A stretch of 64,000 bases of DNA from Membranipora membranacea (taxonomy: Eukaryota > Bryozoa > Gymnolaemata > Cheilostomatida > Membraniporidae): the NCBI GenBank assembly GCA_914767715.1, contig OU612066.1:31284283-31348282 (forward strand). Reading direction: 5' to 3'. Shown piece by piece: positions 10,229 through 47,900 of the stretch. The notes beneath the pieces are model-generated. The model made no database searches. It was given only the letters and a program-made list of their open reading frames with translations, and was not told where the DNA came from. Each line of letters starts with the position of its first letter. Position 1 is the first letter of the stretch. A program made the translations under genes and the position numbers.

Positions 10229-10281
10229 CTAGTAAATGCATAATAGTTACAAATGGCCCCTCAAATTCCCCCCGGCATTTT

Positions 10282-10519
<238 letters not shown>

Positions 10520-21014: not shown

Positions 21015-23631
21015 TTCTAAGGGTTTAAATGACTCCTGTATTTAAAATTTGGTATATTTGCTATTTGCTTTTGTCTGGGTACCTCACTGAAGAGAACGCT
21101 CAAAAGAACTGATATCAGTATGCAAAGCACCCCTTTGTTTTATAGGCCGTTGTTGCAGAAGATCAATCAGGTATCGATGGTAACCTTCTACGAATTTGCT
21201 GAGGCGATGACAAAACAAGGAAGGGAACGAGGAAATGTAATGATTATAAATGATTCGTTAATAGGTACTAAACCTTGTTAATGATTGACCTTCCAACGCA
21301 AGCATGGACCAGAAACTCTAACGTAGGTCAAAAGATTTATGGAAATTTCCACATAGCTTCATTTGAACATATCTTTCAATCATAATTTCCTTGTCGTGAA
21401 TAGCACAGAAAGTCTTCAAACTATACAATATTTCTAACTTGATAAATGTTTTTCCTTGTTAGGAAAATTATTACGTGTTAGCGAAATATTTTAATTGAGG
21501 AAATTAAGGAAATAGTAGCTTATCATTAAGGTTTTTCTAGTTTCCAGAATCAAAGCATTTATTTATTTATTTATTCCAGCTTTGCATGGAGTTTGTGGAG
21601 ACAGTTAAGCATCCTATGTGTGGTACCATTATCAGATCTCCCTATATTTTCAATAAACAGATTTTAATTCCTTTAAATTACGAGGCTGGGAAGTTCAGAA
21701 TGAAAATCACTGCTTAGTGTTATTCATAGAGTTATTATATACTCTCTATGGTGTTATTACTCTACGGTGTTATTACTCCAAGTCCAGTTGGGCCTATGCA
21801 GCAAACTATATTTCTAGTAGTATGCATTCAGATTCTCTGTCATTCGAAATCTGAAACTATAATTCTCATCATGCGCAATCAATAGTGCATAGCCAGTTTC
21901 CTAATTGTCATAGATTGGGAATCACTTTTAGTTTGGCATTGGGCGGAGTATCTCGCGCTGTTTGCAAGATCAAATCCATTATTCATATTGACGTTCAAGT
22001 CGAGGATTTTTTTTTGGCTCAATATTACTCGAGATCACCATAGATGGAAAGAGCTTATAGCTTTTCATTGAATAAAAACAATAAATGAACGAAAATATAT
22101 ATTGTAGTGATTATATTGATAATTTATTTGTTAACATTTTTCCTACCCCTGCTCAAGCGATATCTCATGATATTGAGGGTGAGAAAATGTTCCTCAAGGA
22201 AGGCAAACAGGCCCGTGTTCCCCAAATATCAACAGATGTACTCAGCGAAAGTACTAATACTCAGCAAAATAAATCGAGGGACACTCAGCTAAAACAATTC
22301 CAAAACAAAGGATGAACCAGTATCTGCTCCGGGTGACAGTGCTGCCAATATTTGCTGCCAGTGATCAAGTCTGCTGTTCAAATTAGAAACCTGTTAATTC
22401 ACCTAACGCTCTGGTTCAAGACAACCTATGTACCAAAGCAATCTAATAGTCCTGCAACAATGTAAAGTCTGGCAACAATTGATAGTCTGGCAGCTATTTC
22501 TGCAGTAGTTATGCAATATTTTTACACCGAAAAAATTCATAGCACTTCTTTATAAAAATATTTTTCTACTCCAGAACTAGCTTCCAGGATATGTATTCTG
22601 TGGTCTTTGAACGTGGGAGAGGGCTTGCCCAATACTGGATAAGTAAACACTATAAGCTATCCATGAATAATCCACATCCTCATTGAGCCCACCTTCAAGG
22701 TAACAAGTGGGCGGTACCATAACTTACATAGTACAAGACTGAGCCAAGCCATTCATCTACTCGCTATATATGTGATTGTATCATTGTGATACACCCTCAG
22801 GTAAGGCTTGAGAAAAGAAACCAAAACAAGTGAAAATTCTACGTTTTCATTTAAATCAAGGTGAACACTCATACCCATATATTCATATATCACCTAGATC
22901 ACACTTTGAATCAAGCTACAAGTGCAGGTAAGCTGCCCCCTCCTACTACCCCCCCCCCCCCAAACAAACTCGCATCAGAGTATATCTTGCCAATGCCAAA
23001 GGAGTAATTTTTTTTCAGCGGATGTTGACTTGATTGGTAGTATTGCAAGGGATAATTAAAATGGAAAACTGAGGCGTGCGCGAAGATGTTAGTCATCGCA
23101 CATTTGGGAATGCAAGAACATATTGGTTATGAATTTACAGCACTAAAGTGATTCAAACAGTGGTCAAATCAGGGTTGTCCCTGGAGATGAATTTGGGAAA
23201 TCCTATTTAATAGGTTTGCTTTACTCCTTTCTGGCTTTGAGGAGACAAAATGATGCATTGCTTGACTTTCCATTGAGGTAACTTGGGCTTTGGTGTTTTT
23301 GTTGTATTTTTTGTTAATAATGTAACGTATTTTATCATTAAAACAAAGTTTTTATGACCATAAATGGGAAAATAAAAGAAAGCTTAGTGGTTATGAATGT
23401 CAAGTCTCTTTTTTGGCAATGTATGCACAAGGCAGCCGATGAATTCACCATTACATGTCCAATAGTGAGGGCAACTAAAACAATACAACTATTAATCAAG
23501 TTATAAGTGTTAAAATGTGGTAAGAGGTAAAAGAGAGAGACGCAGATTTGTACTATTGTACTATTGAAGTATCGACAAAATTAGCAACAGTGTTTGTATA
23601 ACTCAATTATGAGGAGATTGTTCTGAAATTA
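21015..23631. other. Spacer between copies B and C
   Basis: The promoter module of copy B lies at about 21100-21240. The rest contains a TTTA repeat at about 21557-21576, a poly-C run at 22951-22963 and an open plus frame at 22085-22315 with no recognisable similarity. I see no supported gene. Confidence 0.45.
21105..21240 (-). promoter_or_regulatory. Promoter module, copy B
   Basis: TATAAA on minus at 21144-21139, ACTGATATCAGT near 21110, and the upstream block TTCCTCGTTCCCTTCCTTG with GTCATCGCCTC at 21236-21204. Order and spacing match copies C and D. Confidence 0.6.
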
Positions 23632-26264
23632 TCAGAATACACCACGCTCAATCTCTGGCTCAGATGCACTAGGTGCTAGTGGAGATGGGGTGGGAAGCAC
23701 TCCTGTAAATCCAAGGTGAAACCCTGGTTGTTCTGGTGATCCCAGTTGTGCTGATGGTCCTGGTGCTCCCGGTTGTCCTGGTGCTCCCGGTTGTCCTGGT
23801 GCTCCCGGTTGTCCTGGTGATCCTGGTTGACCGGTTGTTCCTTCTTGTCCTGGTTGTCCGGGTATTCCAGGTTGTCCTGGTGTTACTGGGCGTGCTGCCG
23901 GTTCTGGTGTTGATGGTTGTGTTGACTGTTCTGGTGTTACTGGTTGTGCTGTTGACTCTGTTACATCTGTTCCTCCCGGGCCCTGTCCTGGTGCAAAGTC
24001 AGCACCTGGCTGTCCTACCAATCCTACTGGCTCTATGACTCCTGGTTAGAATACAAAGACACAGACATAAAGTGAGTGAGAGAGCGATTCTTAGAGTAAG
24101 AGCACATAAGGTCATGCCTCGCCTCTGATACTAACTTAAAACCTATTGGTTCTTGATTTTTCATTCCAATTGTAGTCTTTCTTTGTTCACTGATTTTAAA
24201 GCCCTCATTATTGTTTTATATAACTAACCACTTACCAGAAATTGGCAACACAGAGAACACCTGAGCCTGTTTTGGCTCTGATTGGTGGGTGGGGATCAGA
24301 GCCAACACATTGGCTAAGTAGACCCTATAAAGTGATTTTTATGATAATAATTCATAGCAGCAATTCATCAAGTATACTTTGAGAGAAAGGTCCTTTAGCG
24401 ACAGACAGGAATTAATAAGTCATCTTGCGAACAATTGGCCTTGAATTATAAACAGGACAGTCTTTAAATAATTTCCGGAACAGCCACATGACAGAAAAGC
24501 CCTTCCATTTAAATTGATAGAAATATAAATTACCTGCACCAAGGATGAGGTGACATCTGACTCTGCAAACACCGCTGCCCTGACCCTGAGTGGTTCCATA
24601 GAGCCGGTTAAGTCCGACATAGGTAGTCATATACCTTGGTGAGAAAAGGGCACTGGATCTAGTATGGAGGGTCATTCCCTGAGATGAAAACACGCTCAGT
24701 TGATTAGTATCAGTATCAACTTTGTATGACACCCAGCTGCAATAAAAAGGGTAAACAAAATGAACAAGGATTGACGAAGCTGTCCCTTCATTTTTGCATC
24801 AGTAAAGTGCTAGTTTTCACACAATTTAGACGTACTATTGAATGATGTTCCTCCATAAAATATATCCATGAGCAAGGCATGGTAGAGGCAAACTTTCACC
24901 AAAACACTATGAGCGATCTACATCATTACTATTGCCTCGCAGCCTGTCTATAAGACATGAGATGTGATTTGTTACTCGCCACCCAAATGTCTGGAGAAAC
25001 CCAACCTTTGCATATCTTACCTGAAGTGATTGTTGTCAGGCTCAGTGTGAGCTTTGGTTAGTGCCCAATCCAGGTAGGCACTGCTTGTTCGGGATACGGC
25101 CTTACTAGCAACTCTGGCATTCAGTCCAAATCCATATATGAATGGAGTAGAACTTGTTTTAACTGAAACAGATTAAGCACTTTTTTAAAGTCAGCTGGCA
25201 AGATCTCTACAGGATGCAAATAAAATTGCTAATTCTAATCAAAAACACCCAGGGTTTGAAGTGTTTGGATACGCATAATACCTCAATCCTGAGAATTGCT
25301 CTCAGCAGAAGCTTATATGCATTGTGGGTACTTGCACAACATGAGTTGATTTTTTCATATGCAGAGGCCTTTCTACTCACATGTTGCACACGGGTCTTCA
25401 GCAAAACTGTAAATAAATGCATTCTGCTCCGGTACATCCATCTGAAACGTACACTGGAGTCCTCGGCCTCCATATTTGCCCACCGGATCAATTGTCATCC
25501 TGAAAAATGAAAATTTGAATGAAGAACTACAACTGCGTGATTGATACAAAACAAGGCAGTAGACCAGAGTTACGGCATAGTGTAACAAAAGTAACGCAGG
25601 TCAAATTAGATCAAGTAGAATTCAGTTTGCTGCATTTTAAGCTGACTCCTTTGAGCTGCCAGTAGCTCAACAGTAGAATAGGAGCAACCAATATGCAGGA
25701 AAATTGGATTCAACCTGATCAAGGTTGCGATACAACACAACTTCAGAATCTCAGAGAAGGCCACTAAACTTATGTAAGAATTGCTTTCATTCCTACATCA
25801 AACTAAGAGGGAATTTCAAGAGATTGCATGATGGTTTATGATCCACCTGCAGCCATATAACTTACTGATATCGCTTGCTACATAGAGAATTCCAGCTTTC
25901 CTGTCCACTGTCAGTCTCGGTGAAGTTAAACGGTCCAGTGTTTATACAGCCCTCTCCAGTTCTCAAATTACAGTCAATTGATAGACCAAGATCAAAATCA
26001 AAGCCATGCACTGAAATAAATAACAATAACGATGACCTATAATGTTTTGTTCCAATTCTGACTTCACATGTAAGTTTTCGAACTTGGAAAGCAATGTGAT
26101 GACACAGGTATCAGGAATCAGGAATCAAACTCAACAACCTCATTCAGCCTAAGAGTTTTAAAGATTATGCTTAAAACACAATACACTAATCGACCACCTC
26201 AAAGTAAAACACACTTACCATTTGCAAGTAATAAGCTCACTGCAACGACAATTGTTTTCTCCAT
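23632..26264 (-). CDS. Copy C: secreted protein with long mixed collagen-like/TP-rich tail (354 aa)
   Basis: Exons 26264-26219, 26010-25866, 25499-25381, 25162-25021, 24736-24534 and 24041-23632 total 1065 nt with consistent phases. It has the same architecture as copy B. Differences: exon 2 is 18 nt longer (HGFDFDLG insertion after the signal peptide), exon 5 is 6 nt longer, and exon 3 gains a cysteine (EDPCAT). The tail exon starts with a Thr/Pro/Glu-rich segment (TPEQSTQPSTPEPA) before the GQPG and GAPG triplets, and ends SPLAPSASEPEIERGVF. The tail is the longest and least regular of the three. Confidence 0.9.
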
Positions 26265-26359
26265 TTATGAGGATTAGAATGGCAACTTTATTTAGAATTT
26301 ATAACCGACTCAAGTGAAGAACCCAGTATAACCACTGGTTTGGGTTTTCCACTCGATCG

Positions 26360-26510
26360 ATTCCTGCTAAGAACTGGCGTCAGTTTGCAAGGTACCCCAA
26401 CCTTATATATGTGGGTTTTAATAGCATAGGATTAATCAGGTATCAGTGGGTAACCCTCTACTGATTTGAAGAGGCGATGACAAAACGAGGAATGTAACGA
26501 GGAAATCTAG
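26360..26510 (-). promoter_or_regulatory. Promoter module, copy C
   Basis: ATATATAA box on minus at 26410-26403 and the upstream block TTTCCTCGTTACATTCCTCG with TCATCGCCTC at 26506-26471, equivalent in position to copies B and D. Confidence 0.55.
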
Positions 26511-27109
26511 AGATGATGAACAATTGATTTGTTAATCCTGTTAACACCACATCATAAAATCACCATCCCACAAAAAACTCAAAAGCAGTAATGTGGTAAT
26601 TTTGCCAGGATTAATTTAGATATAAACTGACTTCATTTTAGCTATGATTATTTAATCGGTATTTCATTGCACAGAGCATCCCTAAGAACACTTTTATAGA
26701 TGTACCTATCTCCTAGTCGGTTGTAGCTCGGTGTGCCACCGCAACATTGTGCGATAATTGAGGAATAATGCCTTTATATTTGTTTTAAGTTTTGTCCTTT
26801 TTGCAATCAACTTGTTGTTCATGACTATGTTAAGAAACAGGATATGCGAGCTAAATTCCAAACAACCTTACCATGGAACTCCCAAAAAGAGCTAGACGAT
26901 TCCAGTGTCCGGATTTCCCTGAAAATCCAGAGGGCAGCATTATATAAAATTCAAACCCATTCTTCTCTTAAAAGCAGTGGTTTCAGCATTGGAGTATTGA
27001 GGGCAACAAAACGGCAGTAGTATAACACACATGGATGGTGCAAATCAAACTTAATCCGCTTTTTTTCTTTGCTTTATGCATATATGCCATTGTGATGCAA
27101 TTTCATTAA

Positions 27110-27746
27110 AGACTTTGTTTGAGGCTGCTCTTTTGTATCACATCTTATTCTCCATATTTTATCCTATCATGTGAGCGATTTTCAGCTTTATAATCCAAAT
27201 ATTGAGGAAGTTATGGCCTCTCAAACTTCCAAGGTGACGGCAATTTTTTCAGTAAGAATCAGCCGGCAATCCCTAGGGTACGTCACTTATAAATATGTTG
27301 ATGATCAAAATGTTCATATCTGTAACGGTCTCGAACCCAGGTCCAAATGGCTTTGCAGGCGACAACGCTAATACTGATCTATATTGTCTACTAGCTAGCC
27401 TAGTTGGTCCAAGTGGCGTCATGGTAGCATCGTTGCCTGTAGGTATTGGGGTCTGGGTTCGTTTCCCACCCAGGATTGAATTTTGATCATCATCTTATCT
27501 GTGTGATTATTAGTGTATTAACTTATAACTCATAATGTCTATGTCACATGGTTGTGTCTATGGTTGTGACATACCCTAGGGGATACATCCGCTTATTCCC
27601 AATGCCGATTGAAGGCAATCACCCTGGAAGTTTGAGAGGCCGTAACTTCCTCAATATTTGGATTCTAAAGCTGAAAATCGCTCACATGATAGAATAAAAT
27701 ATGGAGAATAAGATGTGATACAAAAGAGCAGCCTCAAACAAAGTCT
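27110..27746. mobile_element. Inverted-repeat element with TTAA duplication
   Basis: Arms of about 130 bp start AGACTTTGTTTGAGGCTGC and end with the inverse; TTAA lies at 27106-27109 and 27747-27750. The arms include an ATATTGAGGAAGTTATGGCC segment found again inverted near 27640. There is no transposase frame. The unpaired centre carries a tRNA-like stretch. Confidence 0.82.
27405..27480 (+). mobile_element. Possible tRNA-derived (SINE-like) segment
   Basis: AGTGGCGTCATGGTAGCATC resembles a pol III A box region. GGGTTCGTTTCCCACCC, about 35 bp on, resembles a B box and T arm. Flanking acceptor-stem pairing is poor, so this is unlikely to be a functional tRNA; a SINE head captured inside the TTAA element fits better. 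Confidence 0.45.
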
Positions 27747-28483
27747 TTAAGAAAGTAGGTGGCCCAAAGCACCATTATCATAGCCAGCTTATTCTTAGAG
27801 AATAGCGTTGGCTCTGGTCATTAAAATGACATAGCCTACAGGGTTGCAGTCAATTCCTTGCTTTGAAACATTCTGCTGTCATGCTGTCCAACATGTGGTT
27901 AACTGGGATAGTTATGGTCCAAACGCACTTGGCAGTTGTGCAGCGGAACAGCTGCGGTAATAACCGTTCTTTAAACATTTTTCCAATGGGAAGTGTTAAA
28001 AAGAGCATCATGGGAATGAACCTCTTGTGTGTATGTGTACACATCATTTATTGCTTTGTGGATCTGCCCTAACTTTATGAATCATCGATGTTGATATATT
28101 GGCTGGGTATGCATCAATGTTATTTGATTGAAAAGTCCATTTTTTGGTAGTTATATCTCGCATGTATTTGTGATCAGCACACATAGAAAAGAGAAAAGAC
28201 CAAGTTAGTTACATGGGTTACATCTTTGGTTTTGACAATTTATTCAGTTGTTAAAATTGAAAATATCTTTTTGTTTGCTTTTAAAATAAAAGGTGATATT
28301 AGAACAACATAAAAACACAAGGTACAGCAGGAACGATAGAAAATAAATCAAATTTTGATTGGATGGCGAAACAATATGAATGTGCATAGATAAGAAGTAT
28401 AGTAGATTTGTACTCAATTTGAACCACTCTTAACTATAACCAGTGCTTTATTACTCGGTAGTAAAGAGATGACTCTGATTCAA

Positions 28484-30923
28484 TTAGAATATACCACGCT
28501 CAATTCCTGGCTCTGATGCAAAAGGTGCTAGTGGAGACTCAGTGATTGTTGATGGTCCAGATGGTCCCGGTTGTCCTGGTGATCCTGGTTGTCCCCCAGC
28601 CCCGGGTTGTCCTGCAGCACCAGGTTGTCCTGCAGCACCAGGTTGTCCTGGTCTTCCTGGTTGCCCACCGAATCCTTGACCGAAATTGAATGCTGCAATA
28701 GGAAGACACAATTTGAGGACGGAAGGGAGAATTTTGATAACCTTCAAATATCATGAATATTACATCACCACAAACATTTCAAAGCTTTTCAACAGAATCA
28801 ATGGATAGAATCACCATTTTGTCTATCTAGATAGAAATATGTATTACCTGGTGCTGGGATGACGCTACATCTGACTCTGCATACACCGCTACCCTGACCC
28901 TGAGTGGTTCCATAGAGACGGTTCAGTCCCACGTATGTAGTTTTGGAGGTTGGACTGTAGAGTGCTGTGGATCCGGTGTGGAGGGTCAATCCCTGAGATG
29001 AAAACACGCTCAGTTGGTTGTTCTCAACTCTGTATGATACCCAGCTGCAATGATATGAGCAATGGAATTTAATAATTTTTTCTGGGGGGTAGTACTAGTT
29101 CCACAAACTTTAGATCAATAATGGTGCTCCTTAGTCTGAGGCCCCCAAACCCTCGCACCCCTTGCCCTGCGGTAAGACGGCCCCCTGTACTTGTTAGAGC
29201 GATACAGCCACACATTCCATCAAAAAGGCTGCCTGGCATATAATTTAATTTTGCATGATAACTATTGCCTCTTTCATACGAAAAACAAAGATGGTAAATA
29301 TATGGATTGTATGGAGAAACCTTGCACTCTATAGATAGAGAGTTTTACTGAAATATCAAACTATTTTACCTGAAATGATTGTTGTCAGGCTCCGTGTGAG
29401 CTTTGGTTAGTGCCCAATCCAGGTAGGCACTGCTTGTTCTGGATACGGCCTTACTAGCAACTCTGGCATTCAGTCCAAATCCATATATAAAAGGAGTAGA
29501 GCTAGTTTTAACTGAAAAATACAAGACATTAAGGTAAGGTCATGGTAAGACGAAAATAAATCTTTACATCATGTAAACCTTGACCCAAGGCAATCCCAGG
29601 TTCAACCATCTGCATCATTGATTCAGTTCAAAAGCCTGCAGATAATGACAAATAATCAGATCTAAAAACTGTTTGCATCTTGTTCAAAGTAATAAATTTT
29701 TCCGAAATTCTCAAATTATGTGGTCTCCGTGTCACCAAGGGTGTTTTAATAACCGTCCAGTTTAATTCTCTATCCATATGTATTAAGAATAGGTGGACAC
29801 AATGGTGAGGTTTATAAAGTTGACAATGCACTTACATGATGCGAATCGGTCTTCAGCAAAACTGTATATAAAAGCATTCTGCTCCGGTACATCCATCTGC
29901 ATGGTGCATTGCCATCCATTGCCACTAAATCTGCTGAGTGGGTCAATTGTCATTCTGGAAAAAAACTTGCTTATTACTGAGCTGAAATATGTGAGTGATA
30001 TTCTGCCATCTCACTAAACACACTGAAACACCGTTCCATACTGCATTTTTCTGAGATTCCAAAACAGTTAAGAGTACCGATAACATGAGATTTGACTGGA
30101 TCACCATTGGAATCCCTATACATTCTGCCTGCAGGATAGCTTTGTGACAAAGTCTATCTCTGCAGCACAGCGATGATGGCACTGCATAGCACCAAGGAAT
30201 ACAACTCTAAGTGTTCAAAGTTATGAGATTGCAAAGCCAGTGTTCCATTTAGGCCCAAATATTTCAAAATAAGGGGTTTCCATTATTTACCAAAATTCGC
30301 TACTCAGTCCAGATGAATTAATTCAGGCCATATGCTGGAGAGACGAATGTATGTGTCAACAGCTTGCACATGCACAGATTGATCCCTAGCTAGCACTTCA
30401 CCATCTGAATGTTGGTAGAGTACCCAAATTATACTTACAGGTATTGTTGGCTGCACAGAGAGTTCCAGATGGATTCACGTCTGGTTACATTTGTAAATCT
30501 AAATGGTCCGGTGTTTCTACAGCCGTCTCCGTTTCTCAAGTTGCAGTCAATCGAATTTCCAAACACTGAAATAATAAGAAAAATGGGTTGTTAGTGATTG
30601 TCATTAAACCCTTCAATTGTATGTCGTTGTAACATGCTTCCCTGGCAATGTATCAATCTCTGGGTTTGAGAAAGAGATAAATTAGTTTGATCACCATTAA
30701 ACTTGTCACCAATGATAAATCATTGTGTATATTGATATATATAATTAATCTACATATGTAGGACGATGTGCAAAAGATATGTTGTGTGCTGAGAACTCAT
30801 ATAAATTAGTTAATTATTAGATTTGGACACTTTAAAATGTATAACTATGAAATATAAATATTTAATTTAATACTCACCATTCACAACCAGTAATGTCGCC
30901 AATACTATGATTACTTTCTCCAT
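28484..30923 (-). CDS. Copy D: secreted protein with short collagen-like tail (279 aa)
   Basis: Exons 30923-30878, 30565-30439, 29954-29836, 29511-29370, 29044-28848 and 28692-28484 total 840 nt, all phases consistent. The signal peptide begins MEKVIIVLATLLVVNG. The domain keeps DCNLRNGDGC, NSLC, WQC and VCRVRC cysteines. The tail is the shortest and most regular: about 14 GQPG/GAAG-type triplets, then SPLAPFASEPGIERGIF. Exons 4 and 5 and the intron between them are very close to those of copy B, pointing to recent duplication or gene conversion. The function of the family is unknown to me. Confidence 0.9.
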
Positions 30924-32925
30924 TTTTGGTTTTGATTTTAAATTTTATATAATGCTGAGTAGTGTGGTGCTCCTTACTATGTAACAAGCACTGAAGAACT
31001 GATGTCAGGATGAGGAGTGAGCCGACCTTTTATAGGTGGATTTTGTCACTTGATCTTTCTGTTTTGGCGGATCTTGGCAGGTGTTGCATCAGTAACTGTT
31101 GGTAATACTCCGCGACCACTAGCATGACGAAACAAGGAAGAGAATGAGGAAACTTAAGTGAAAATGAATGATTCGTAAATCTGTAATCGCTCCATTACCG
31201 CCATAGAATCTCAATGATTACTCAAGTTTGCAAAAACGAAGATTAAAAAAATTAATGGCCATTTAGCTAGGCTATTTTTCCATTTATCACCATTGCAATT
31301 AACCACCGATTTCCTTGTGTGGCGATTACCTCGTGTGGCTAGCAAAGGTCGCACCACTTTATCACTGCCCCACAATTTCCTGCCACCGTGTGCCTCTATT
31401 AATCCAGGTCTTTCTGAGAACAGTAATATGCAGTGCCTGCCACAAGTAAGGTGTTAGGAGCTAGCCATGTTTGTTTGAGTTGTCTAAAAATAGACTTCAG
31501 TAAAAAACCAGCAGTAATATCCAGAGGCCACAAACTCCCTATGATATTGGAAAACTGCACAGAATGCTATACACGAGTCATAGTGTTGTACAGTCTTCTG
31601 CTTCAAACTCAACCAGGAGAGCTTTGAGCAAGTGAGTTTTTATCAATTAATACATTAATTTGTCAGTGTTGATGAAAATATTTAGCATTTATTGCTTCAT
31701 TGAAGCCGTTCATGAATAAAAATAAATCTGCCTCCATTCTCATGAAATAAAATAAAACTACGTTTAAAATTATTAATAGAAAATAAACTATTTGTGTGAC
31801 AATTTTTCAGCAAGACTACTGAGATAAATTCTTTGAGGTTTCGATGCACGTTATAATGAATAAATGTTTTTGCATGCACAATCTGCAAATCACAGTAATA
31901 AGAGAGCAATTCACCTGCAACATTTTGCAAATTGAAAAAATCAAAAAAAGAGTTACAATCTGCCAACCCCTTTTAAATAGAGCAATTAACAAAAGTCTGA
32001 AATGATGCATTTAAACTGCAAAGTTTTTGACAAAGTTGTGCGTCATTTCAAACTTTCACAAATGACGCATGAAAACTGGGTAGAAGTATAAGTAAACCTG
32101 CCTGAAGCTATTTTAAGATTCTTGAATTAAGGAATGCATTGAGTTAAGAGAAAAAAGGGGGTGGATAGTAGTCTCAGGGGTGTCTAGACAGAATCACTAC
32201 TTGGCTTGGAAAAAATATTCTCTGCATGTCAAATAGACCTGGCGTTACACGCACCCGCACAACCGTGAATAGATGGCTAAAATTATGATAGAATATGCTG
32301 TTTGTAAAAAATTTGGACTTTTTGCATAATGTAATGACGAGATAAAAAGGTGTGCACATATATATTTAATGGGGAACTATGCGACATGGAAAATGTTAGA
32401 CGGCTTGAATGTTACTTTTCCGTTTTTATACGCCACTTTAGTATTAGATATATTTCCTCCTGTATTCGACCCTGCAATAGACAAGATGAGAGGGGGTTAT
32501 AAACTATATGGAGTGATGTCACAGATCCCTAACAGACAAATCCTCAGTTTTTCATTGAAATTTGAACTTTCTCAGTAATAGCTCTAAATTTCATAAATCC
32601 TTTGTATTTTGAACCATAAACATATTTTCAATAATCTAAAACCGGGTTCATTGTTGATCAGCACCCTCCCAGGGAATGAGAGGTCAAACTTATAAGCCTT
32701 GATGGAAACCAAAAGGCCTGCACATCGATTCTTCAGGGCCATGTAGCAGGAAAACTGACCACAACATTTCCTCTAAGCAGGAGTCAAAATACCACAGTCA
32801 AATTAAAAATTGTTATCTTTGCAAAGACAACAAGATCTTCTCTTCAGATGATAGATTTTCAATATATATTAATGATGTTTTCAAGATGATTCGAATCTTT
32901 TATACTGCTTTCATTGGGTTGACAG
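30924..32925. other. Spacer between the gene array and attractin
   Basis: Apart from copy D's promoter it shows only short open frames with no family resemblance. Attractin's 3' UTR should lie in its right part. No mobile element with clear ends was found. Confidence 0.4.
31000..31160 (-). promoter_or_regulatory. Promoter module, copy D
   Basis: CCTATAAAAGG on minus at 31036-31026, with the upstream TTTCCTCATTCTCTTCCTTG block at 31154-31124. CTGACATCAGTTCTT lies between the TATA box and the start codon. Confidence 0.6.
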
Positions 32926-35900
32926 TTATGGATATGGAGGGGCAGCTTTCCCTGCCTGCCCTGACCTGCCCTCCCAGCATAGAACAATGGTGCGCAGTTC
33001 ATATAAGACAGAGTAGAGTTATATCCTACGTACCTATATTCACAAGTGTAGAAGCAAAGGCTAGGCCACTACAGCCCATGCCTGGTTTATCTTCCCCTCC
33101 TGTTGGTAGTTTTATAAGAACACTGGCTATGGCAGCCCGAGCTGGCTCTATCGGCTCCAGTCCAACTAATGTTACCTGAATGACAAGATTAAGGGTTATC
33201 AAAGTTGGAGCACAAAATTTATATTCCTTTATAACGTGTGGGTCCTGAACATAGACTTAATGTACTATAGTAGATTATAGAATATACCATAGTATATTAA
33301 GTCTATGGTTGATCATGAATAAATCTAGGGGACTTTTAAATGTGATGAGTTATTATGTGTGCAGCAAGACAGAATCACAGGAACAGAGATTCAGTTTCAG
33401 ACTCCCCAGTTTCACCAGAAGTCAATCACTGCCAAGGGATGCCCTGATTGTAACGGCTAACAAACCTCAGAGATTCAACAATTACCTACTTGGCAAACAA
33501 TTAAAAATTTGTAACCAATAATCTCCATAAACTGGACATGGAGGGAGATTAGTAGTATTCCGCAGTCACCGCTCATATGGGGCTCAAACTTTACTTATAT
33601 TGCCGTGTAAAAGACCATACTTACTTTTGGTAAAGAGGTTATCAGTTTGGTTTTGCTGCGTTTACTGCTAGTTCTCTGGAAGGGGGACAGTGACTCGCTA
33701 CCTGACTGAGAAAATCTCCCAGGGATAGCCTTAGTGTTATAGTGATAGCTAGCCTCTGGTTCTGAGTGATCTGTAAGAAGCTCTATGGGTAAAAGTACAC
33801 TAGCAAACGGGCGGCTCGCCATGTTCCTTCTCTCTTGCCTCTCAGCCTACAATCAACAGGAAACAGATATACATAATATTAGATATTCCCAAGTTGATGT
33901 AAATATTACAGGGGTCAGAAATTCCTCGGTATAGAAGTGCAATATTTTCTCCACTGAATAGGTAAATTTTCTGTCCATTTTTATTTTTCTACGCAACAAT
34001 TAAATGAAGCATGAAATGTTAAACATACTAGTGTAAAACCGGAACACAAATAGCCATAACTATTCGATTACATGGGATAATCATTTAAATTTTCTCCAGG
34101 AAGCGATAAATTTTATGGCCAGTTACAACATTGCCTAATACTCTGATCCGCCCCACTAACGGTGAATCATGGTTGGTATATTTGTCTCAACTGAGGCGAT
34201 CGCATCATGACCTTAATTTCTAATTTAGAAAAATTTTAAGTAACTATCGCAAAAAAATAAATTTCTCATTATTGCAACATTGAAGTTATCTTGGACCTAG
34301 ATCTCTCATTAGTAAAAGTACCTCTGTATGGAATGTCAGAAACAGGTAAATAAGTGTAAAAAATGTAAACATTTTTGTAGGTTATAAGTGGAGAATCATA
34401 CTTTAATAATTTATTCAATGCTTGAGAGAGGAAAACAGTATTTGACCAAATGTCATAAAAACTTCAGTGTAAACAATTCTCGACTACAGGATCATGTTCG
34501 AGTAACTTTAAAAAAAAATTCGATACCAAGAAACTCGGTAAACAAAAACCATTTTAGTGAATCATAATGAATGTTTTCTTACTGGGATTATTTGGCTGAT
34601 CATGATCATACTTACGCTTCTTTGCTGCATGATGGCGTATCGAGCTTTCATCTTCCAAATAAACCCAGCAATAATAAGCAGGGCCAAGAAGCATCCAAAG
34701 AAGACCAGGAAGAACTGGAATAAGTTGATCCTCTGGTACTGAGTGAAAGATACCTGAAAATACAAACAATGAAAACGCGTGAAAAAAGAGCTTCAAGTGC
34801 CGAGAATCAAAATTGAAATAGATTATATTTACGAGTTTCTTGCAATGTTATTGTCTTATATTTCTAGCGATATCAGGTCAGCAATGACACCGACAAACCT
34901 GCTTTTCTTCGGAAATTAAGATTAAACTTGCATGGTGGGAATGTTTGTATGCTCTATTGCGGCAGAGAAAATAATACCGTGACCTCTCAACGTGAGTCGT
35001 CACTTAAACATAAGTAATTTGAATACGTATAAGACATTGTCATGGTAGAGAGGGTACCATCTACCACCAATACGCACACAGATATAATTTAGATTTTACC
35101 TGGAACACTAAAGGGGTGGTAAACCCGTCTAGCTGTAGCAGGAAAGTAGCATTGTGCTCTCTGGAGTTAAAGTCTAGATCTAGATGATCTATTGTCAGCG
35201 TGATAGATTCGTCCGCATAGCACTCACTATTTAGAGGAATAGACTGGTACTTAGAGTCATAAAAACCTGTGGAATACAGAACTAATGTTTTACCTGGAAC
35301 ACAAAAGGGGTGGTAAACCCGTCTAGCTGTAGTAGGAAGGTAGCATCGTGCTCTCCGGAGTTGAAGCTACGATCCCGATGACTTATCGTCAGCTTGATAG
35401 ATTCGTCTGCATAGCACTCACTATTTATAGGTATAGACTGGTATTTGGAGTCATAAAAACCTGTGGAACACAGAACTTAAGAATGCAGACACAAAAATGG
35501 TCAAGTTGTTTTGAGCACACTTGCTGGAAATAAAAAAGGAAAGAGAACAGCAGGGCTTTGATATGTAAAAACTTGAGCTAATGAGGCTATGAAGCATCGC
35601 TTGCAATAAATCATAATTTCAGTGTCCTGCGCCATCAGCTCATCTTTTCATCCTTTGAATGTCCTTTTTTCATCTCGAAAATCCTAAGCTGAATCTAAAT
35701 TTGCATCGCATTTCAAGGCACAAGCGGACATTTCTACATTTTCTTTTCAATATTGACTTTTATAAATCAAGATAGTATCTGGGAACTTAATACTATACCT
35801 GAATACAAGGTCAGATTAAGTTTAGCCGGCGCGAAGCAAGTCAGGGTTAGCTCCACATCCCTATCCTCATATCGAGGCTGACTCTGCAGGTTTATATGGG

Positions 35901-38900
35901 TCACATGTTTATCTTCTGGCTTAGAGAAATTAAATGTGTACCGGAAATCAACTCCTAATTTATCTGAAATATTGTGAAAATAATGTGAACTTCCAATGTC
36001 TAGAAGGGTTTTTGAATGCATACAAATGGTGTGTAGGCCATTCAACAGAAAATATGAGAGCAGATCATTAACTTCTTATGGGATGAAAGAAAGAAACTGA
36101 GTGATAACATGTCAAATCCAAATGGCTTTCTGAGCTCATAGTAGTTTAGACATCAACGTTATAATATTTAAACTGAGATGGGAGCCCAACATAGACATGT
36201 TGAGCACAAGTAGGTCTAATATTAATCGGAAGGAATGACGGTAATACTCACAGAAGCACTGCTGGTTGAACAAAGTATCAGGATGATATTGTCTAGTAGT
36301 ATCACACCTACAATACCAACAGATTCGGGCATATTATACAATTGATAATAAAGGAAAATTTCCATCAAAGTGTTCAAGAATATGCTCGGTGTCAGTGTCA
36401 GGGTATGTGCTGCCTCTGACTTCAGCATTTTGAGCTGCCTTCAACTGGTTTCGCTTATTATGCAAAACATTCACAATATCAAGCTTGTCCTGAAAAGCAG
36501 AAATGTTTTCATTGTGACACAGATTGGAATCAATATAACTTACTGTTCACAGACATCCCCAGTGGCTCCCTGTACTCTACATAAACAAGCACCTGTCTTA
36601 TCATCACAAGCATCTGCCACTGCACTACAGTTACACACTGTAAAACATACACAATCATACATATAAAAAAAAAAGTGATACGACAAAAAAAAAACCTAAT
36701 GATTTGAAAATCATATCTACGGTGGCCATGCAAAACAATGGACGGTACTCGACGGCAGAGTACTTAGAGATGAGCATCATATTACCCATCAGTAAAAGCA
36801 AAGTCTATATTCAGAGCGGGCTGTTAGCTGGTGAGCTTTATTTTAAAATGATGTCTAAAATATTGGCAACATCGATAAAATTGATAAGTCCCAATTACAT
36901 TACATTAAATATTTACTCATTTCTAAGCCGTTGTTCCCTTTTCATGCATGTCTTAATGGTCAGATGCCGTTGCATTCCTGAACAAGCCATTACAACAGCT
37001 GTGGATAAGCAGACCTAACTTAATAAACGCAAATATTCATGCATGCTAAGCGGGTCTCCTCACCAACATCAGACTTGTGGGGACGGTACAATGGGGGCCA
37101 TGACTAAGCCATGGGGGTATCCTATTATCACACGGCAGGCCTTATCTCACCATTATTGTAGCCAAAACATTTGGAAACCCAATACCTTTTTCATAAATTT
37201 TGTTGTTAACAGTTCATGTTCTGACTGAGTAGTCCTGACTAACATTGACAGGTTCCCCGTTAGTAGGATCCCCTAATTACGCAAACAGGTTTCCCCGTTG
37301 GTAGGATCCCCTACTTACATTGATAGGTTCCCCGTTGGTAGGATCCCCTACTTACATTTACAGGTGCCCCCGTTTGTAGGATCCCTTACTTACATTGACA
37401 AGTTCCCCCGTCGGTAGGATCCTCTACTTACATTTACAGGTGCCCCCGTTAGTAGGATCCCCTACTCACATTGACAGGTTCCCCCGTTGGTAGGATCTCC
37501 TACTTACATTTACAGGTGCCCCCGTTTGTAGGATCCCCTACTCACATTTACAGGTGCCCCCGTTTGTAGGATCCCCTACTTACATTTACAGGTGCCCCCG
37601 TTTGTAGGATCCCCTACTTACATTGACAGGTGCCCCCGTTTGTAGGATCCCCTACTTACATTTACAGGTGCCCCCGTTTGTAGGATCCCCTACTTACATT
37701 GACAGGTGCCCCCGTTTGTAGGATTCCCTACTTACATTTACAGGTGCCCCCGTTTGTAGGATCTCCGAAGTAGCCGTCAGCACATCTCTCACAATGATCA
37801 CCTGTAGTGTTACCTGTGCAGCTGATACAGCGATTGAGTGGGTCACATGTACTGTGTCCGTTACACTGACACTCTATAACACAAACACACACACTCTGTC
37901 AAATACAGCCCATGCAGTTAACAGCTACATGTAGACATACCATAGCATACCCTATACCCTAGAGGAGTCAGGTATTCGCAGGGGGACAAATTCGCTATTT
38001 TGCACAGGCTTGAGATAGCTAAATTTAAACCACTGCTGCCACACAGCCAAATTTGTGCTTATAAAATTCTGTATAGCTCAAAACTAATAAAATGAGGCTG
38101 CAATCTCAGCATTGTCACCTAATGAGCAAATTATTTGCACAAACTGATCGTCAAAATTAGGGTATGAAACTAATTATCTACCGGCACGCACGGGTGACGT
38201 AGTTACCGTCTTACTAGTGCATACTGTACACGTCAAAAGCTGGTGCGTAGATTTCATGCCCTGATTTTGAAGATCAGTTTGTGCAAATTATTTGCCCATT
38301 AGATGACAATTATGAGATTTAAGTCTCAATTAATTATCTTGGAGCTATGCAGAATTCAATGAGCACAAATTTGTATGAGTGGCAGCAGTAGTTTAAGTCT
38401 AACTAATATTCATTCCCTCTCTGTTCTGTACGTAGAATCCCAACTCAGCTAGCTAAAATAAACTAACTAAACCTAAATTTAAACCTTAACTCTAGCTCAT
38501 ATTTACTTCTCTAGGGTAAATGGAGAGCTGGGGAGATAACTAACTAACTAATAATTACACACATGCGGGCCAATCAGCTGCAAGGAAATCAGCCAGGTTT
38601 GCTGCTAGCTTACTAAAAATAGAACACAAGCTGTTAAGTCCATAGACTTTATTATTCAGTCTATGGTCAAGTCTGTTGATGTAAAGGGAGATAACTTACT
38701 TGGACACTCAGAGAAGAACCAGGTACCGCTGATATTTGAGCTGCATACACCGTCAATATCATTCTTCAGTTCACCTTTCATACAGTGTCCCTTACCTTAA
38801 TAATGTAAAGTAGTCAGATATATGCAGAAAAAATCATAATATAGTATATCAATAAGTCCTTTCAGTTAGAGGTTAGAAGGATTATAAAACATAAAACATC

Positions 38901-41900
38901 AAATATTTGTTTCTTAACATACTGTGCCTGTTATAAGATCCAGGAGGCACATTTTGTATGAAATCTTTTCACCTAATTAAGAGGACAGGAAATGCCAGAA
39001 CAGTTGCTATGTGTGATAGTATACATTCATACAAGAGGCAATATACATTAATTTGGACTGTAGGTTAGCGACAGTTGTGAGAGCTCATTGAATGAGGATA
39101 TCCTAATGTAGCCATACAGTTTAATTTTAAGAAACCGACTCATTTTTAAGGGGATAAATTACATACCTGTATTGGACGGGTCATTACACCAGCCACACAT
39201 GGCGTTACCAAGACAAGAGTCACAATCCTCAGTTAGCTCACATGACACGTCTGAAATGACCAACAAGAACTACACTGATAAGGGAGAATAAGGTATCATA
39301 TAGTACTGACATATACAGTACTCATATATATCTGTGAAAGCCCTCTGTGTGAAATAATTCCTCTGACGGACTGGAATGCTGTGCAAACACTGGATTGTAC
39401 AATGTATTAAAGCTGACAAGCTGGTATCACTAAGAGTTCATTGCCACACCTTCTTTTGCTTCCTGAATACAAATCTAGTGACGACAGTTCAGTTTTGTTG
39501 TAGAAAATCATAACAGATAATCTGAGAGCTTAAACTATCAGTAATAAAGGCTTGTCATCTATTTTTGTGTGAATGTCTGGGTGTCTATTCTGTCAATCAT
39601 GGCATATAATGTGCAATGTCTCGATGCAAGTAATGTACATTATCTAGGTTGATGCACTTACCATCACACTTGCTTTCTTGAGTAGTCCACTCCAGACACT
39701 GACCATAGAGGAAGTGAGTAAGGTATGAGTTTGTATCTATACACTGTGCTAAACTCTCACACCACAGACAACTATTAGCTGTGCAGTTTGAGCATGAGTC
39801 AAAGGTGTAACACGAGGCTTCACATGTCTGTGGTTCCTCTGTCGGCCCTGAAACACATAACAATGGTGATTCACTGACAAATAATACACCGTTAATTATC
39901 GCAAAATAATGATTGGAGTTGTCCAACTCTGTTATACAAGTAGAAAACTCCAAATCATATCAATTATACTCCGATATAATACAGTGGACATGAAATTACA
40001 CCATCACAGAATTTGCAATGATAGTGTGAAAACTGTGAATTTTCGATACACTTGAAAGATATAAAGAGTTATAAAGACACCTAAATGAAGTGTATAAAAT
40101 ATGTGCCTACACAGCAAATTGGTGATTTTTGTCGCTGCGACATATTGACTGTTAGTCCCTTTATACTTACCAGGTGATATGGTTTCCCATTCCTCTGATT
40201 TCCCATCATTATTATAACTAGATGTCTTCTCCTTGACGACACACTTATTAGACTCAGATTCCCAGTAGCAGTCATCAGGGTGTAGACCGCATGCCTCACA
40301 GTTAGTGTGTATGTCACATGATATCACGTTGTCACTGTCACATATCGACAACTCCTGCAATTCTGGGTTCTACAAGGACATTTATAAAACATGCAGATGC
40401 AGCTGAGTAAGATGGCAAAGGAGAAACTTTGAAATCCTGTCGCATGAGAAACCAAAGAGAAAAGCTGTCTCGACTACTGTGCAAAAAGATTTTGTTGAAT
40501 AGCAATACACACACAATAAATACCACCATACACATTTTTGATGGTAAATTGATCTTATAAACACACTAGTATAAAACAAAAAAGTACTGATACATTTTTG
40601 GCTGATCTAAATGAATAAATACATACGACACTGGCCGCAGGAGGTATGATACCGCAGAGCTTTTTATCAGTGCCTGCTTGTGATCTCCAGTAACATCCTT
40701 CAGTAGATAAACAGGAGTGACAGTCTGAACCAAACTGATTACACTTAGAGTGCATCTCTGACACTGAGACCTCACAAGAAGATTGGGTGCAGCTGTCAAA
40801 TGCATTCTGGGTACAACCTGTAATAAAGCACTTGTTTTGAAGATATTCGGAGTTGCCTATGCATTGCAAATTAATGAGAGGACAACTATTAAATATGTGA
40901 AATAAATCAAACTAAAGAGAGCAGCTGAGAAATAAATTGGGTAACAACATGAAGCTTACTAAACTAATCAATGTTTAAGTGTGGGCAAGTGAACGTTGCT
41001 CCCATCATTCAAGTTTTGCTTTGAGCTCCCAAGTAGGTCAGTTCCAAGCTCCATGCTATCAACAGCCGCCAACCTTGGGAAATCAGGAGTTTTGCACAGT
41101 GACACAGCCTGTTCTCACTTACCATCGTTGTCACTCCAGCGACAGAAGCTGTGTAAGAAGGCAGAAGGATCTGCGTTGTACATACTGGGGTTCAGAGCTC
41201 CGCCTAGTGCGCAGGTAAATGATGAGTTAAATAAACTACAGTCAGGTATATGAAGCTGTACGATGTCACCAAGCATCAGGCCGTTATAACCTCCATACAG
41301 ATATAGTTTACTAAAAGAAATTAGAAAGAGAGGATCACGGACATGCAAAATATAAATATGGTGTGTTGTAAGTTGCATACCAGCAGGACATTTAAAACCG
41401 GAGTAGGAGAATATTTTCGCAACAAACTGCTGAGATATTTCCAAAAATAAAAAAGTTCCTAGTTAAAACGGACGTTTGATGAAATATTGATTCTGCAGCC
41501 AGATGTCGAAGTGACAAAGCAAAATCACAGGTCTGATCATTGACAATACTTTACTTCATTAAGAGATCACATATCAAATATTATTTTGTTTATCAAACGA
41601 CAAACTTTAATGTCAATCTATTCTTTACATCAGCTGTAGTTTAAGCGCTTAAACAGTGTCGGGATAGCTGGTGGTAGCATTACATTATCAACCACTTTCC
41701 CAAACAGTGGTTGATAATGAAATGCTACTACCAGCTATCCCCACGCTGTTCAAGTGCTCAAACTACATCAGCTGTTATCAGTACTAACCTTTCATGAGAG
41801 AACATTGAATGACCAAATCTGCTGACGCTGTCAGTGGAAAGGTCTGCTGCTTCCATAGTCAGCCATTTATCACAACCTAAGTGAATAAATTATTAGAAAA

Positions 41901-44900
41901 TTTAACAATCGGAGAAGGAGAAATTATGATTTGGGTTAGTCTTCTTTTCAAAAAACACAACCACCTGCCTGCTAGTTATAGTGGCAGTGTTAGGACTGTA
42001 GGGCTGAACGGGGTACAAAAGTTGAAATAGTAGCTTTGCCCTTGAACGGGGCAATTGGAGATATTGGCCTTTGATTGGATGCGAACCAGTCATTATTGAA
42101 ACATGGTACCCTGTATTCCAGACTTGCTGAAGCTTAATCTAACTGATGGTTATCAAATCATTGACAGTACCATATTATTAGAGAAACAGTCACCTGTCAA
42201 TTATCCAGTCAACTAAAACATCTCACACTTAGTTTAACCAAGGAGACTCTAACTCCTTGGTTTAACACATACAGTTACTATTTATATATATAAGTATATA
42301 CACTAGAGACTCCATGGATTGACCACAGTCTTTCTCAGATCACGTTAGGGGGGGGGGGGGGTGTACAATAGCAGAATTAATAGCTTATCCTGTTGAGTAG
42401 GGTTATAGGCTTTCTACATTGTCACAAACATGGCACTTGATAATTGCAATAATAAGTAAATTCTTCAACAAAAAGTTCAACATCTCGTGGCATACAGTGT
42501 CAACTAGTTTAAGTGTTCTTTCAACTGTAGCAGGATAGCTGGTAGTAGCATTTAATTATCAGCCACTTGATAGTAAAATGCTACTGCCAGCTATCCCGGC
42601 ACAATTTGAGAGCTTAAATTAAGTATCGACACTGTGTGCCATAAGATGTTGAACTTTTAGTTGAGTTTCCTTGATATTGCGTTTATCGAATAACAGATAT
42701 GTAGGGTGTATAACTTACATATATCGTAAGCTTGTATTACATTAGAATAGCACTGCGATCCGGAGCTTTCTGTCGTCTCATTGTGTGAGTTGCCTCCACT
42801 TACTAGCATGTAACCAGAATATAACTCAGCGGAATGTAAGTAAAACGGACGGGAAGCTGGCGTCAAACCAACCCTACAAACATAATTCATACCCGATATT
42901 GAAGCTTATAGATGGACTGCTATTTATTAGCGGATAAATATTTCACTACTGGATAAAGAAGCCTTACTCATTGTAATGTGGAAGCCATGTAACTAATTTC
43001 CATGATAAATCACAATGGAGGGTGACCATGAGGCGCCTAAAGCTTTCCATCTAGGTTTGGCCAGCGAGTTCACTGGGATAGATAATTTACAGTTAGACTT
43101 ACAGCGGTTTGTTTTAATTTGACCTTCTCTTCTGAGAGATTGGCATCATAAACATTTATAACATCATGAAACTAGCAAAGCCCTACATGATGTGTTCTGT
43201 GGACATGAGACAGTAAACAGTTTACCTCAAGTGTGACTGGTCAGTTATCACTTGAGCAAAGTAATAGAGATATAAGCATGTATTTCTACTCTAGTTATAC
43301 CCCTAATTCTTCCCATTGTGAAATGAAGGGTGATATTGAAAGGGCCAATGCTTGATATCCTAACATATTGCTTTGTTAGGTATGTAGATCAAAAGGTAAC
43401 CCCTCTATCATCACATAATTGTGTACCATGATGCCAGAAAATTGACTCAAAATGTGTAATGGTTGCCAAGCTTGGAGCGCTGGAAACTATGTGATTATGA
43501 AAATATGTGATAGTGTGGTGTGATATGAGCAACAAACATGGCCTTGGCTGGCCTTCTTTCCAGACCCCACCACTATCATTGATTCAAACATAATTCAACA
43601 ATCCACAGGGTGTTGGGTGTGTAGGGAGAACGAGAGTCAAAGGGCAACAACATTCCCACAATGCAACTGTAGCTCAAAGTGAGATAAGCTTGAAATTTGT
43701 TTTTCTATCATTGACCTGATCTCTCTGGGAATTCCCAAAAAAAACTGCATTATGGGACGCTATTAAACTTGCCAAAACTGAATCATCCCAGTTTGTGGGT
43801 TTCTAGTAATGACATCAGACTGGACAGTATAAGCTCTTGATTAGTATCCCATGCACATACCATGTAGTTGTATTGACGATATATTTGTATAAGTTACTCT
43901 CAAGATAATATGATCCAGCTTTCTTGTTGTTACGATAGCCGCCGAATACAAACACAGAGTCGGTCATATCCTGATACACACTACTGTGACCATACCGACC
44001 TCGTATATTCACCCCCGATGTATCCACCACTGTCCAGTTAGAAGTGGCTACAATATACGGAGAAGGTAGGTAGATAGATTGTATAATTGAAGAGATGTTA
44101 TGATTTTGATTTTTGAGAAGTTTTTTTTAAATTGCTGGCTATAGAGGGAGCACATGGATTAGCCTGTCTTGACGAGCTTTGTTGTGGGGGGGGGGGGTGT
44201 TTTGTCCCCCCACCCACTGAACAAAGCTTGTCAAGACAAGTGTCAAGACAAGTGTCAAGACAAGTGTCAAGACAAGTGTCAAGACAGGTAGCACTTGGAT
44301 ATAACAATCATGACACCACAATATCAGGAAAGTTAAATTTCAAGCTAAGTGTAGGCTACAGGGGATTTATAGTTCAGTAATGTGGGCTGTGATTGTTTCG
44401 GATTCTATGATATGTAGGCACAACAAATTTCCATGTATAACGACATGTCAGCGCTATCTTGAACCCTTCGATGGTTTATAGTGATGAGAGTCAGTGGATT
44501 GGCTTGGTTGAATTGCCACAAATCAAACACATTGATGCTGGACTACTGGAGAGTTTAGACATGGGAAGCTTAGAACCAGAATATGAAATCTAAAGAAGAA
44601 TCTTCACATACCCGAGTATAAAGTAGTTAACAACGATGACACATAAAGCAGTATCAAATTATGACAACAAATGCTCATTAAAAGAAAAATTGCAAATCAT
44701 CTTTTTGAGTAACGTCATAGCTAACACTATGGTAGCACTGAGTATGGGCGTCACAGTCAAAAGAGGAAAAAATTGATTAAAAAATATGATATGCATGATG
44801 AAAATAAACTCTGACATGGACCAATATAGCATGGAGGCTTAGAAATAATGTGTAATCATCTCTTTGAGAATTCTTAAAGTGATATATAACAGTAGCTACA

Positions 44901-47900
44901 TCCTAGTCAGTCAGGATAAGCGAGCCAGGAGTAGAGCTAGACGCCTGATATCCTTACCAATATCATATGCCTGTACAGTAGAAATGAAGCTATACACAGC
45001 ACTCTGTCCAAAAAACACATAGAGTTTCCCTCTGATTATATGAGCGGTATGCCCGGTAACATTGTATATACCACTAGGCAATGTCCTCCACTGGTCAGAT
45101 ATTACATCGTAAGTCAGTAAATCTGAGGTAGGCAGACCATCTGATGAACCTCCGTACATATACAGCTAAAGATAAGAGTGGATCAGAAATAAAACAAAAT
45201 GGTGAGAGTTACTAGTGATGGTTGAATGGTTGAATGCTACTAGTGATATTCTGTTGTTGACTACTCACGGAATTCCACACAATCTGCACAGCACTCAGGC
45301 TAGATCCATGGATTGTTGTCACCCCCAACTGTGTATGGACTGGGTGATATATAGTTCCACTCAATGGCTGAATACTTGAAACTTAACATTTATCCAGATT
45401 GACCATCATTAAATTTAGCGGACAGGAATTGAACGATGAGTATTCTGATGTTATTGCCATAGAAACCGGTTTTCTATGTCCTACCAAGGGAAGGAAACCT
45501 GTTACGTAGCCATGTTCAAAAATCTTTCACTTCATGAAGTGAAAGATTTCGGAACACGTTAACTGAAGAAAAGTCAAAAATATGAGTGAAGATTTAAAGG
45601 GAGACGTTTGGAAATTTTATTTCTGACATCTTTGAGCTGAGCTTTGAACACAGATGGATGAACTGAGAACTTTATAATCATATTATGAACTATATGAAAT
45701 GTGGAAGTCAATTCTGAATAATCCGCAATAAATGTCACTAGTTGAGTGATAAATGTCACTAGTTAAATGTCACTAATTAAATGCCACTGAGTTGACTAAC
45801 CTGCCATGCCGGACAGGTTCAACCATGGAAGGATATGATCCTAATAATAGCATGCTTTCATAGTCATTTTTAATACCCTCGAGGAGTATTGTACTCACAT
45901 GAGGAAAGTTGGCCTTTTCACACATGCTTGAAATAGGAAAATTCACTCCTAGCCAATATTTCCTCACCCACTTATATGAACTAAAACCTAATATAGCCAA
46001 AACTGGTGCTAGCTAACATTTAGTCACCTACAAACTAGCAAAGCATATCTGATATTCACTCATATATCTCCCCCACACATGAGCTGATTACTAAGAATAT
46101 TTTGCCGAGTAGTAGGATTGGTCACAAGTTAATGATAACTTCCTCAATGCCATTCTTGTGAAAGCGTTCAGTCGTAATACCAAATAATACCATGTAATCT
46201 TGAATCACCGATTACAGATACAGACATACCATAGATAGAATGTTGTATTGACAACTAAGTCAACACAACATGCTAAGATATACCTGCTACCTCGTACACT
46301 GAGCTAGAATGACTAGGCAATATTTTACATCGCATCCCATATCGCACCAGTTAACTTATTATATGTGTAGAAAGAATATAATAATTTTATGATCACAGAC
46401 ACACATGTGGGGATATGTAGGCTGGTTTTGAGTTGTGAGGGGAATAGACTTCCTACACTCATCGATCAGGATGTCCGGGATTGTTAGTTCCATAAGGTTT
46501 TATAGCACAAAACCTTAGTTTGTGTGTGTGGAGTAAATCAGATGGCCTAAGTTTGACTATCTATCTTCATACACTATTTACCTGTTTAGTGTCAGGGTCG
46601 AAGGTTAGAGTATGACCGTATCTTTCTGTGATTGTCGAGTTACTGTTCGAAACACTCCACATGTAATTATTTAGATTATATCTAAAATATAGATGATACT
46701 TCAACAACCATAAAATATATCAATTACAAAAGCTATACGTAAATTTATCTCTGTTATTATACGAGAGAGACCGCAAGTATTCATCCAAAGTCAGATAGAT
46801 TTTATATTTTAAAGATTCTACAGTTGACAGACAAATATTGTGATAAGGTGACAGAGTTGGCAACAATGTCTAGTTTCCAGGGGCCACTTGTCACCAAATT
46901 GATGAGAATAAGAACAGAAAAGTAAAGATACGCAGGTGGTGGAAATATTAAGCCATGGCGTGCACATTTTTGTTTGCCAGTTTCTCAGATTCATATGTTT
47001 AGAAAGTTGCATATCATGCTTGCTTTCACAACATTTTTACTCCTCGATCTATCCAAAATAAACATTATTTCATCATCTTCGGGATGATAAGAATTCCTAT
47101 TCAAAATGGCTGGCTAAACTGGTTTGTAACAAAAGCCATATTGTATCTTTGATAGTGGTGTTCATCGTAACTGAATGATACTTGTGAGGATTAGTGTTGT
47201 GTATTCTCATGTCTCTAGTCAGATACATTATAAAGATCAGGTAGTCAATGCAATGAACTCCCTCTTCCTGGGAAGAGTGAGTTCATCGATCAATGTTCAC
47301 AATGACTTTCAAAATTTCAGTGCCATCTACCCTGTCAGCTATCATTCAAAATCACAGGCAAACCTCTCACATTTACATACCTGAACTTTCGCAATGTTAT
47401 CTAAAAGTGTGATTTGTAATTAAATAGAGGGGTAGGCAGATAAAACGAACCTATGAAGTGTTGATTGTTCTGTGCTGTTTAGATGTATATTATATCTGTT
47501 TTTGAGAGTTTCCCCGCCGATGATGTAGAGTGTATCGTCCACTACGGCTACAGCTGACGAGGCTCGGCCTAGCGGAGGGTTCGCTGTACTCACCGTCAGC
47601 CATGATGCATCTAACGCTGATGTGGAACAGTCATCTCCTGAAAAAGAAAATAAGTTAACCCTTGACCGATAATAGCGACGGAACTAAAATACTGTGATTC
47701 ATATATGAATCGATAATTACTTTATAAAAACCTGTGAAAATAATTTTCGACTGTCACATTGTATCTTGATGAAATGGTGAGACGATGACATATGTGTGCT
47801 AACAGACGTGATCGGTCACTCCCAACACAGATAGATCAGCAGAATAGACATACAATCTACATCTCACTGACTTTTGTCGAGAGTATATAACCTTTTGGAG

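Follow-up and report, generated by a model that had tools for sequence, protein, structure and literature searches.

The attractin gene of the bryozoan Membranipora membranacea contains two adjacent homologous exons, exon A (35460-35294, minus strand) and exon B (35266-35100, minus strand), which are likely to form a mutually exclusive pair created by a 194-nt tandem duplication, with exclusion enforced sterically, frameshift and NMD acting as a backup, and two isoforms of the membrane-proximal stem as the product. All positions refer to the window, the whole 64,000-nt stretch of contig OU612066.1 (assembly GCA_914767715.1) that was analysed. Exclusive twin exons arising by tandem duplication are a well-known splicing type, of which the attractin case would be a new instance, and the features of the sequence indicate that the pair is probably a real, working member of it.

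The gene is attractin, with a coding part at 32377-52347 (minus strand) that comprises 25 exons counting one twin and encodes a protein of 1303 aa; the gene model consists of a phase-consistent chain of 24 exons plus a last exon (32471-32377) read by hand, was tested by in-silico splicing, and includes one uncertain exon with a weak donor (40856-40567). The identity proposed in the earlier note is borne out by the ATRN propeller (PF24981, 276 bits), EGF_LMN_ATRN (PF24973, 59 bits) and GBD_ATRN (PF24972, the membrane-proximal stem, 85 bits), all over the curated Pfam cut-offs, and by the MASRP tail motif, which follows the membrane helix and is invariant in 37/37 rows, two of these rows being the two isoforms. 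Neither a CUB nor a C-type lectin domain was found at E 1e-3 in the Pfam scan of this protein; PF00059 is annotated for 2 of the 36 attractin-type homologues and PF00431 for only some. The constitutive exon before the twins (35799-35963, minus) encodes the first half of the stem domain, with PF24972 positions 3-57 matching window positions 35797-35961, and ends in phase 1, and the constitutive exon after them (34616-34753, minus) encodes the end of the stem domain and the transmembrane helix, which places the twins just before the membrane helix, as had been claimed. With either twin in place, the stem match covers all 117 positions of PF24972, the isoforms scoring 89.3 and 88.6 bits. The cytoplasmic-tail exon (33625-33846, minus) carries the MASRPFA motif, which is conserved in attractins and MEGF8, and the helix and tail of this attractin align to those of MEGF8 (E 9.5e-13), the profile matching helix and tail alone and not the stem. 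The closest of 41 protein matches is an attractin-like protein of Watersipora subatra (54% identity over model residues 905-1175), and when the last 373 residues of isoform B were used as the query, 20 proteins were found, none of the named ones being bryozoan.

Other features of the window include several within the attractin gene. Approximately 14 copies of a 38-nt minisatellite occupy 37238-37763 (minus), the unit being the end of exon 37873-37736 together with its donor (CACCTGTAAAT followed by gtaagtagg), so that 5' splice sites recur in series at and downstream of the authentic donor 37736; since 38 nt is not a multiple of 3, use of the later donors would shift the frame. One attractin intron contains a good-looking acceptor followed by an open stretch at 36489-36337 (minus; DKLDIVNVLHNKRNQLKAAQ...), which by hand reading is off the phase of the gene, and an inverted repeat with 154-nt arms that are 82% complementary and 82 nt apart lies in an attractin intron at 38016-38405. 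Elsewhere, 18214-29344 (minus) holds collagen-like open frames, and a module (N or T, ten further residues, then L or M and TLHT) occurs there in three near-copies, suggesting a tandem gene cluster, and long open frames of SINQ repeats at 9984-10845 derive from a simple tandem repeat.

Exons A and B are neighbouring, homologous, equal in length (167 nt) and identical in phase (1 in, 0 out), and direct reading of the sequence agrees exactly with the lengths, phases and 27-nt separation given in the earlier note, as well as with the positions of all five junctions named there. Two repeat finders recovered the pair as a two-copy tandem repeat with a period of 194 nt at 35094-35477 (minus), the copies being 88-89% alike (88% identity over 190 nt in one, 89% matches in the other). 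The ungapped match extends from 17 nt upstream of each acceptor to 6 nt into each donor, and the outer flanks beyond it show no similarity; these limits imply that the duplicated segment took in the exon and little more than minimal splice signals. The alternative that the pair reflects alleles which were collapsed or falsely duplicated is disfavoured by the 21 differences per 167 nt within one contig and by the distinct outer flanks. The twin-exon DNA has one match in the genome, this locus alone, and a genome search with PF24972 likewise gave one match, the attractin gene, although the exon-by-exon search missed even the twins and may likewise have missed a paralogue.

In-silico splicing yields a protein of 1303 aa with exon A alone and of 1303 aa with exon B alone, so that either twin joins both neighbouring exons in frame, and the companion claim that both together break the frame holds equally: joining A to B introduces a stop after residue 1116 and reading A, spacer and B a stop after residue 1108. 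Omission of both twins gives a stop after residue 1096. The premature stops of these three forms lie 359-684 nt before the last junction, well upstream of it, and NMD would therefore be expected. A further productive form, beyond those in the earlier note, would use an acceptor at 35293 and join the spacer (35293-35267, minus; 27 nt, gt...ag) to exon B, which would add 27 nt (9 aa, GKTLVLYST) in an open frame for a total of 1312 aa. Upstream of the pair, a pyrimidine tract with an AG that resembles an acceptor, 63 nt ahead of exon A (35523-35461, minus), would, if used, lead to a stop after residue 1056, and is possibly a decoy or the relic of an older acceptor.

The view that 27 nt is too short for ordinary splicing gains support from intron length in the 24-exon model, whose 23 introns measure 212-1416 nt; a spacer of this size would be too short for the spliceosome, and A and B therefore could not be joined to each other. 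The splice sites of both twins score within the range of the 22 others of the gene (donors 6.8 and 6.8; acceptors 6.2 for A and 5.0 for B, with a matrix built from the gene's 22 other acceptors). Competing RNA stems of the docking/selector type were sought between the upstream intron, the spacer and the downstream intron, the longest having 11, 9 and 7 pairs, lengths reached or exceeded in 58/60, 35/60 and 60/60 shuffles, respectively, and neither of the Rbfox motifs TGCATG and GCATG occurs between 35798 and 34754.

The twins differ at 21 nt (11 of them at third codon positions) and 9 aa, with no indel and no stop. At the column where A has Asp and B has Asn, exon A reads Asp-Ala-Thr and lacks the conserved N-glycosylation sequon, whereas exon B reads Asn-Ala-Thr and retains it, as do 32/35 other attractins, many of these rows being close kin; the three without it are two cnidarians and one unnamed. 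The 35 attractins are the 36 attractin-type matches minus P0016, with the laminin-type matches P0037-P0041 and 20 later matches left out. By this comparison, B keeps an old glycan site that A has lost. A single predicted loop (model residues 203-215) contains six of the nine differences, among them the one at the sequon, a clustering with P = 0.003 if 13 codons are counted and P = 0.005 if 14 are counted, the loop being taken from the predicted model of a relative (P0043) that is 37% identical, with stem pLDDT mostly >90 and an alignment gap just before the loop. Without the structure model, clustering of replacements in an arbitrary 22-codon window is not significant (P = 0.13). Replacements and silent changes affect 6:1 codons inside the loop vs 3:7 outside it (Fisher P = 0.05, two-sided), and the net charge over the nine differing residues is approximately +2 in A and -1 in B.

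The substitutions bear on a rather unlikely explanation, in which a single twin is used while its partner, a recent copy in decay, is rarely or never spliced. The ratio dN/dS between A and B is 0.09/0.33 (NG86) or 0.10/0.23 (ML), and simulation with both copies neutral gives so few replacements and no stop with P = 0.004 (0.004-0.014 in a simpler test); when one copy is constrained (omega 0-0.3) and the other neutral, however, no more than 9 aa changes without a stop appear in 5-10% of simulations (P 0.05-0.10), so that the substitutions only weakly disfavour an idle copy. In favour of such decay, conserved positions have changed in each twin: at position 107, 35/35 other attractins have His or an aromatic residue, whereas A has Arg and B has Leu, and this loss in both, together with the loss of the sequon in A, could reflect relaxed constraint. 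Moreover, the pair is not known from any relative, Watersipora having one unlabelled form in the database and no sign of the pair being seen outside M. membranacea. Against an idle copy, both twins retain frame, length, splice sites and a complete Pfam match, and replacements, but not silent changes, gather in the predicted loop. As for age, A and B share 47/56 residues and each has 21-22 identical to the Watersipora stretch, which suits either a duplication after the split from Watersipora or gene conversion.

Two further explanations turn on the splice forms themselves. Exon B might normally be spliced with the 27-nt spacer through the acceptor at 35293, the choice then being between A and B plus nine residues; this is improbable, although the end of exon A (35294-35317, minus; TTTACCACCCCTTTTGTGTTCCAG) does resemble a 3' splice site, with TTTAC, a pyrimidine tract and CAG and a branch-like A 21 nt upstream, and scores 8.5 as an acceptor, above the own acceptors of both A (6.2) and B (5.0), with an open product. 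The corresponding end of exon B, however, scores 7.2, yet the model begins no exon there, and the 8.5 may therefore be due to chance, as may the whole signal, since the FTTPFVFQ that it encodes is conserved as protein in Watersipora; the nine added residues would also fall within the domain. More remote still is an on/off or secretion switch, in which reading A with B or with the spacer would either yield an ectodomain lacking the membrane helix or lead to NMD. Mammals do have soluble attractin, and the A plus spacer and A plus B products would end at residues 1108 and 1116, just past the part of the stem encoded by exon A and before the helix; these stops, however, precede the last junction by 633-684 nt, so that NMD is expected, and a switch of this kind leaves the near-equal domain scores of the two twins unexplained.

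The reading as a mutually exclusive pair has parallels in alpha-tropomyosin, OGDH 4a/4b and the human MXE clusters, which likewise have adjoining homologous exons that match in length and phase, in a frame that needs one alone, and which share with the attractin pair a donor and a branch point placed too near each other. In published work, 57 (9%) of 629 human MXE clusters have a donor-branch-point distance <50 bp (PMC5740500), OGDH 4a/4b is described as resting on the same constraint, with alpha-tropomyosin cited there too (PMC7969005), and a too-short intron is stated to rule out joint use in two-exon clusters (PMC6071210). The OGDH case differs in that its branch points lie in a real intron, given as 118-131 nt in birds and mammals (PMC7969005), whereas the attractin pair has a 27-nt spacer with its sole candidate branch site inside the upstream twin. 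That candidate is the TTTAC inside exon A, the A of which (35314) lies 48 nt from exon B; no other yTnAy occurs in the 74 nt upstream of exon B. As a putative branch point for exon B that lies upstream of A's donor, it would allow commitment to exon B to consume exon A, while U1 bound to A's donor would cover the acceptor region of B and block its use; double or zero inclusion would be cleared by NMD, and the outcome would be two attractins differing in one stem loop and one N-glycan. The fully specified version of this scheme, in which the FTTPFVFQ codons also serve B as branch site and pyrimidine tract and the choice toggles the stem glycan and the loop charge, re-aiming an attractin-MGRN1 ligase across zooid types or stages, is speculative and rather unlikely.

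The earlier note knew of no such pair in attractin, and a search of the full-text literature, covering mainly open papers, agrees: among the papers listed, judged by title or abstract, none reports mutually exclusive exons in attractin or in Bryozoa. Attractin, ATRNL1 and distracted share the propeller, EGF, stem (GBD_ATRN), helix and MASRPFA tail; a twin stem exon was not found reported for them, and here the sequon is missing in one twin. As to what the variable residues might do, the stem of MEGF8 is described as its MOSMO-binding part, and the limits of this M-Stem were originally set by matching MEGF8 to ATRN and ATRNL1 (PMC8513608). The E3 ligase MGRN1 is described as using ATRN and ATRNL1 as its adapters; these two did not interact with MOSMO, a result attributed there to a diverged stem, and the MASRPFA tail motif is linked to MGRN1 in relatives (PMC12752501). 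Since the MEGF8 stem binds MOSMO and the ATRN and ATRNL1 stems have diverged, a switch in a stem loop could change the partner of the adapter, and the choice of isoform would then tune which membrane partner or receptor is engaged by the attractin-MGRN1 ubiquitin ligase adapter. The variable residues could thus be relevant to binding, by their modelled placement in a loop of the stem and by analogy with the MEGF8 stem and MOSMO. If the pair is what it appears to be, its 27-nt spacer would provide an extreme test of the minimal gap between exclusive exons, and one gene would supply two naturally occurring stem isoforms, distinguished chiefly by a single loop and one glycan site, as a ready-made experiment.
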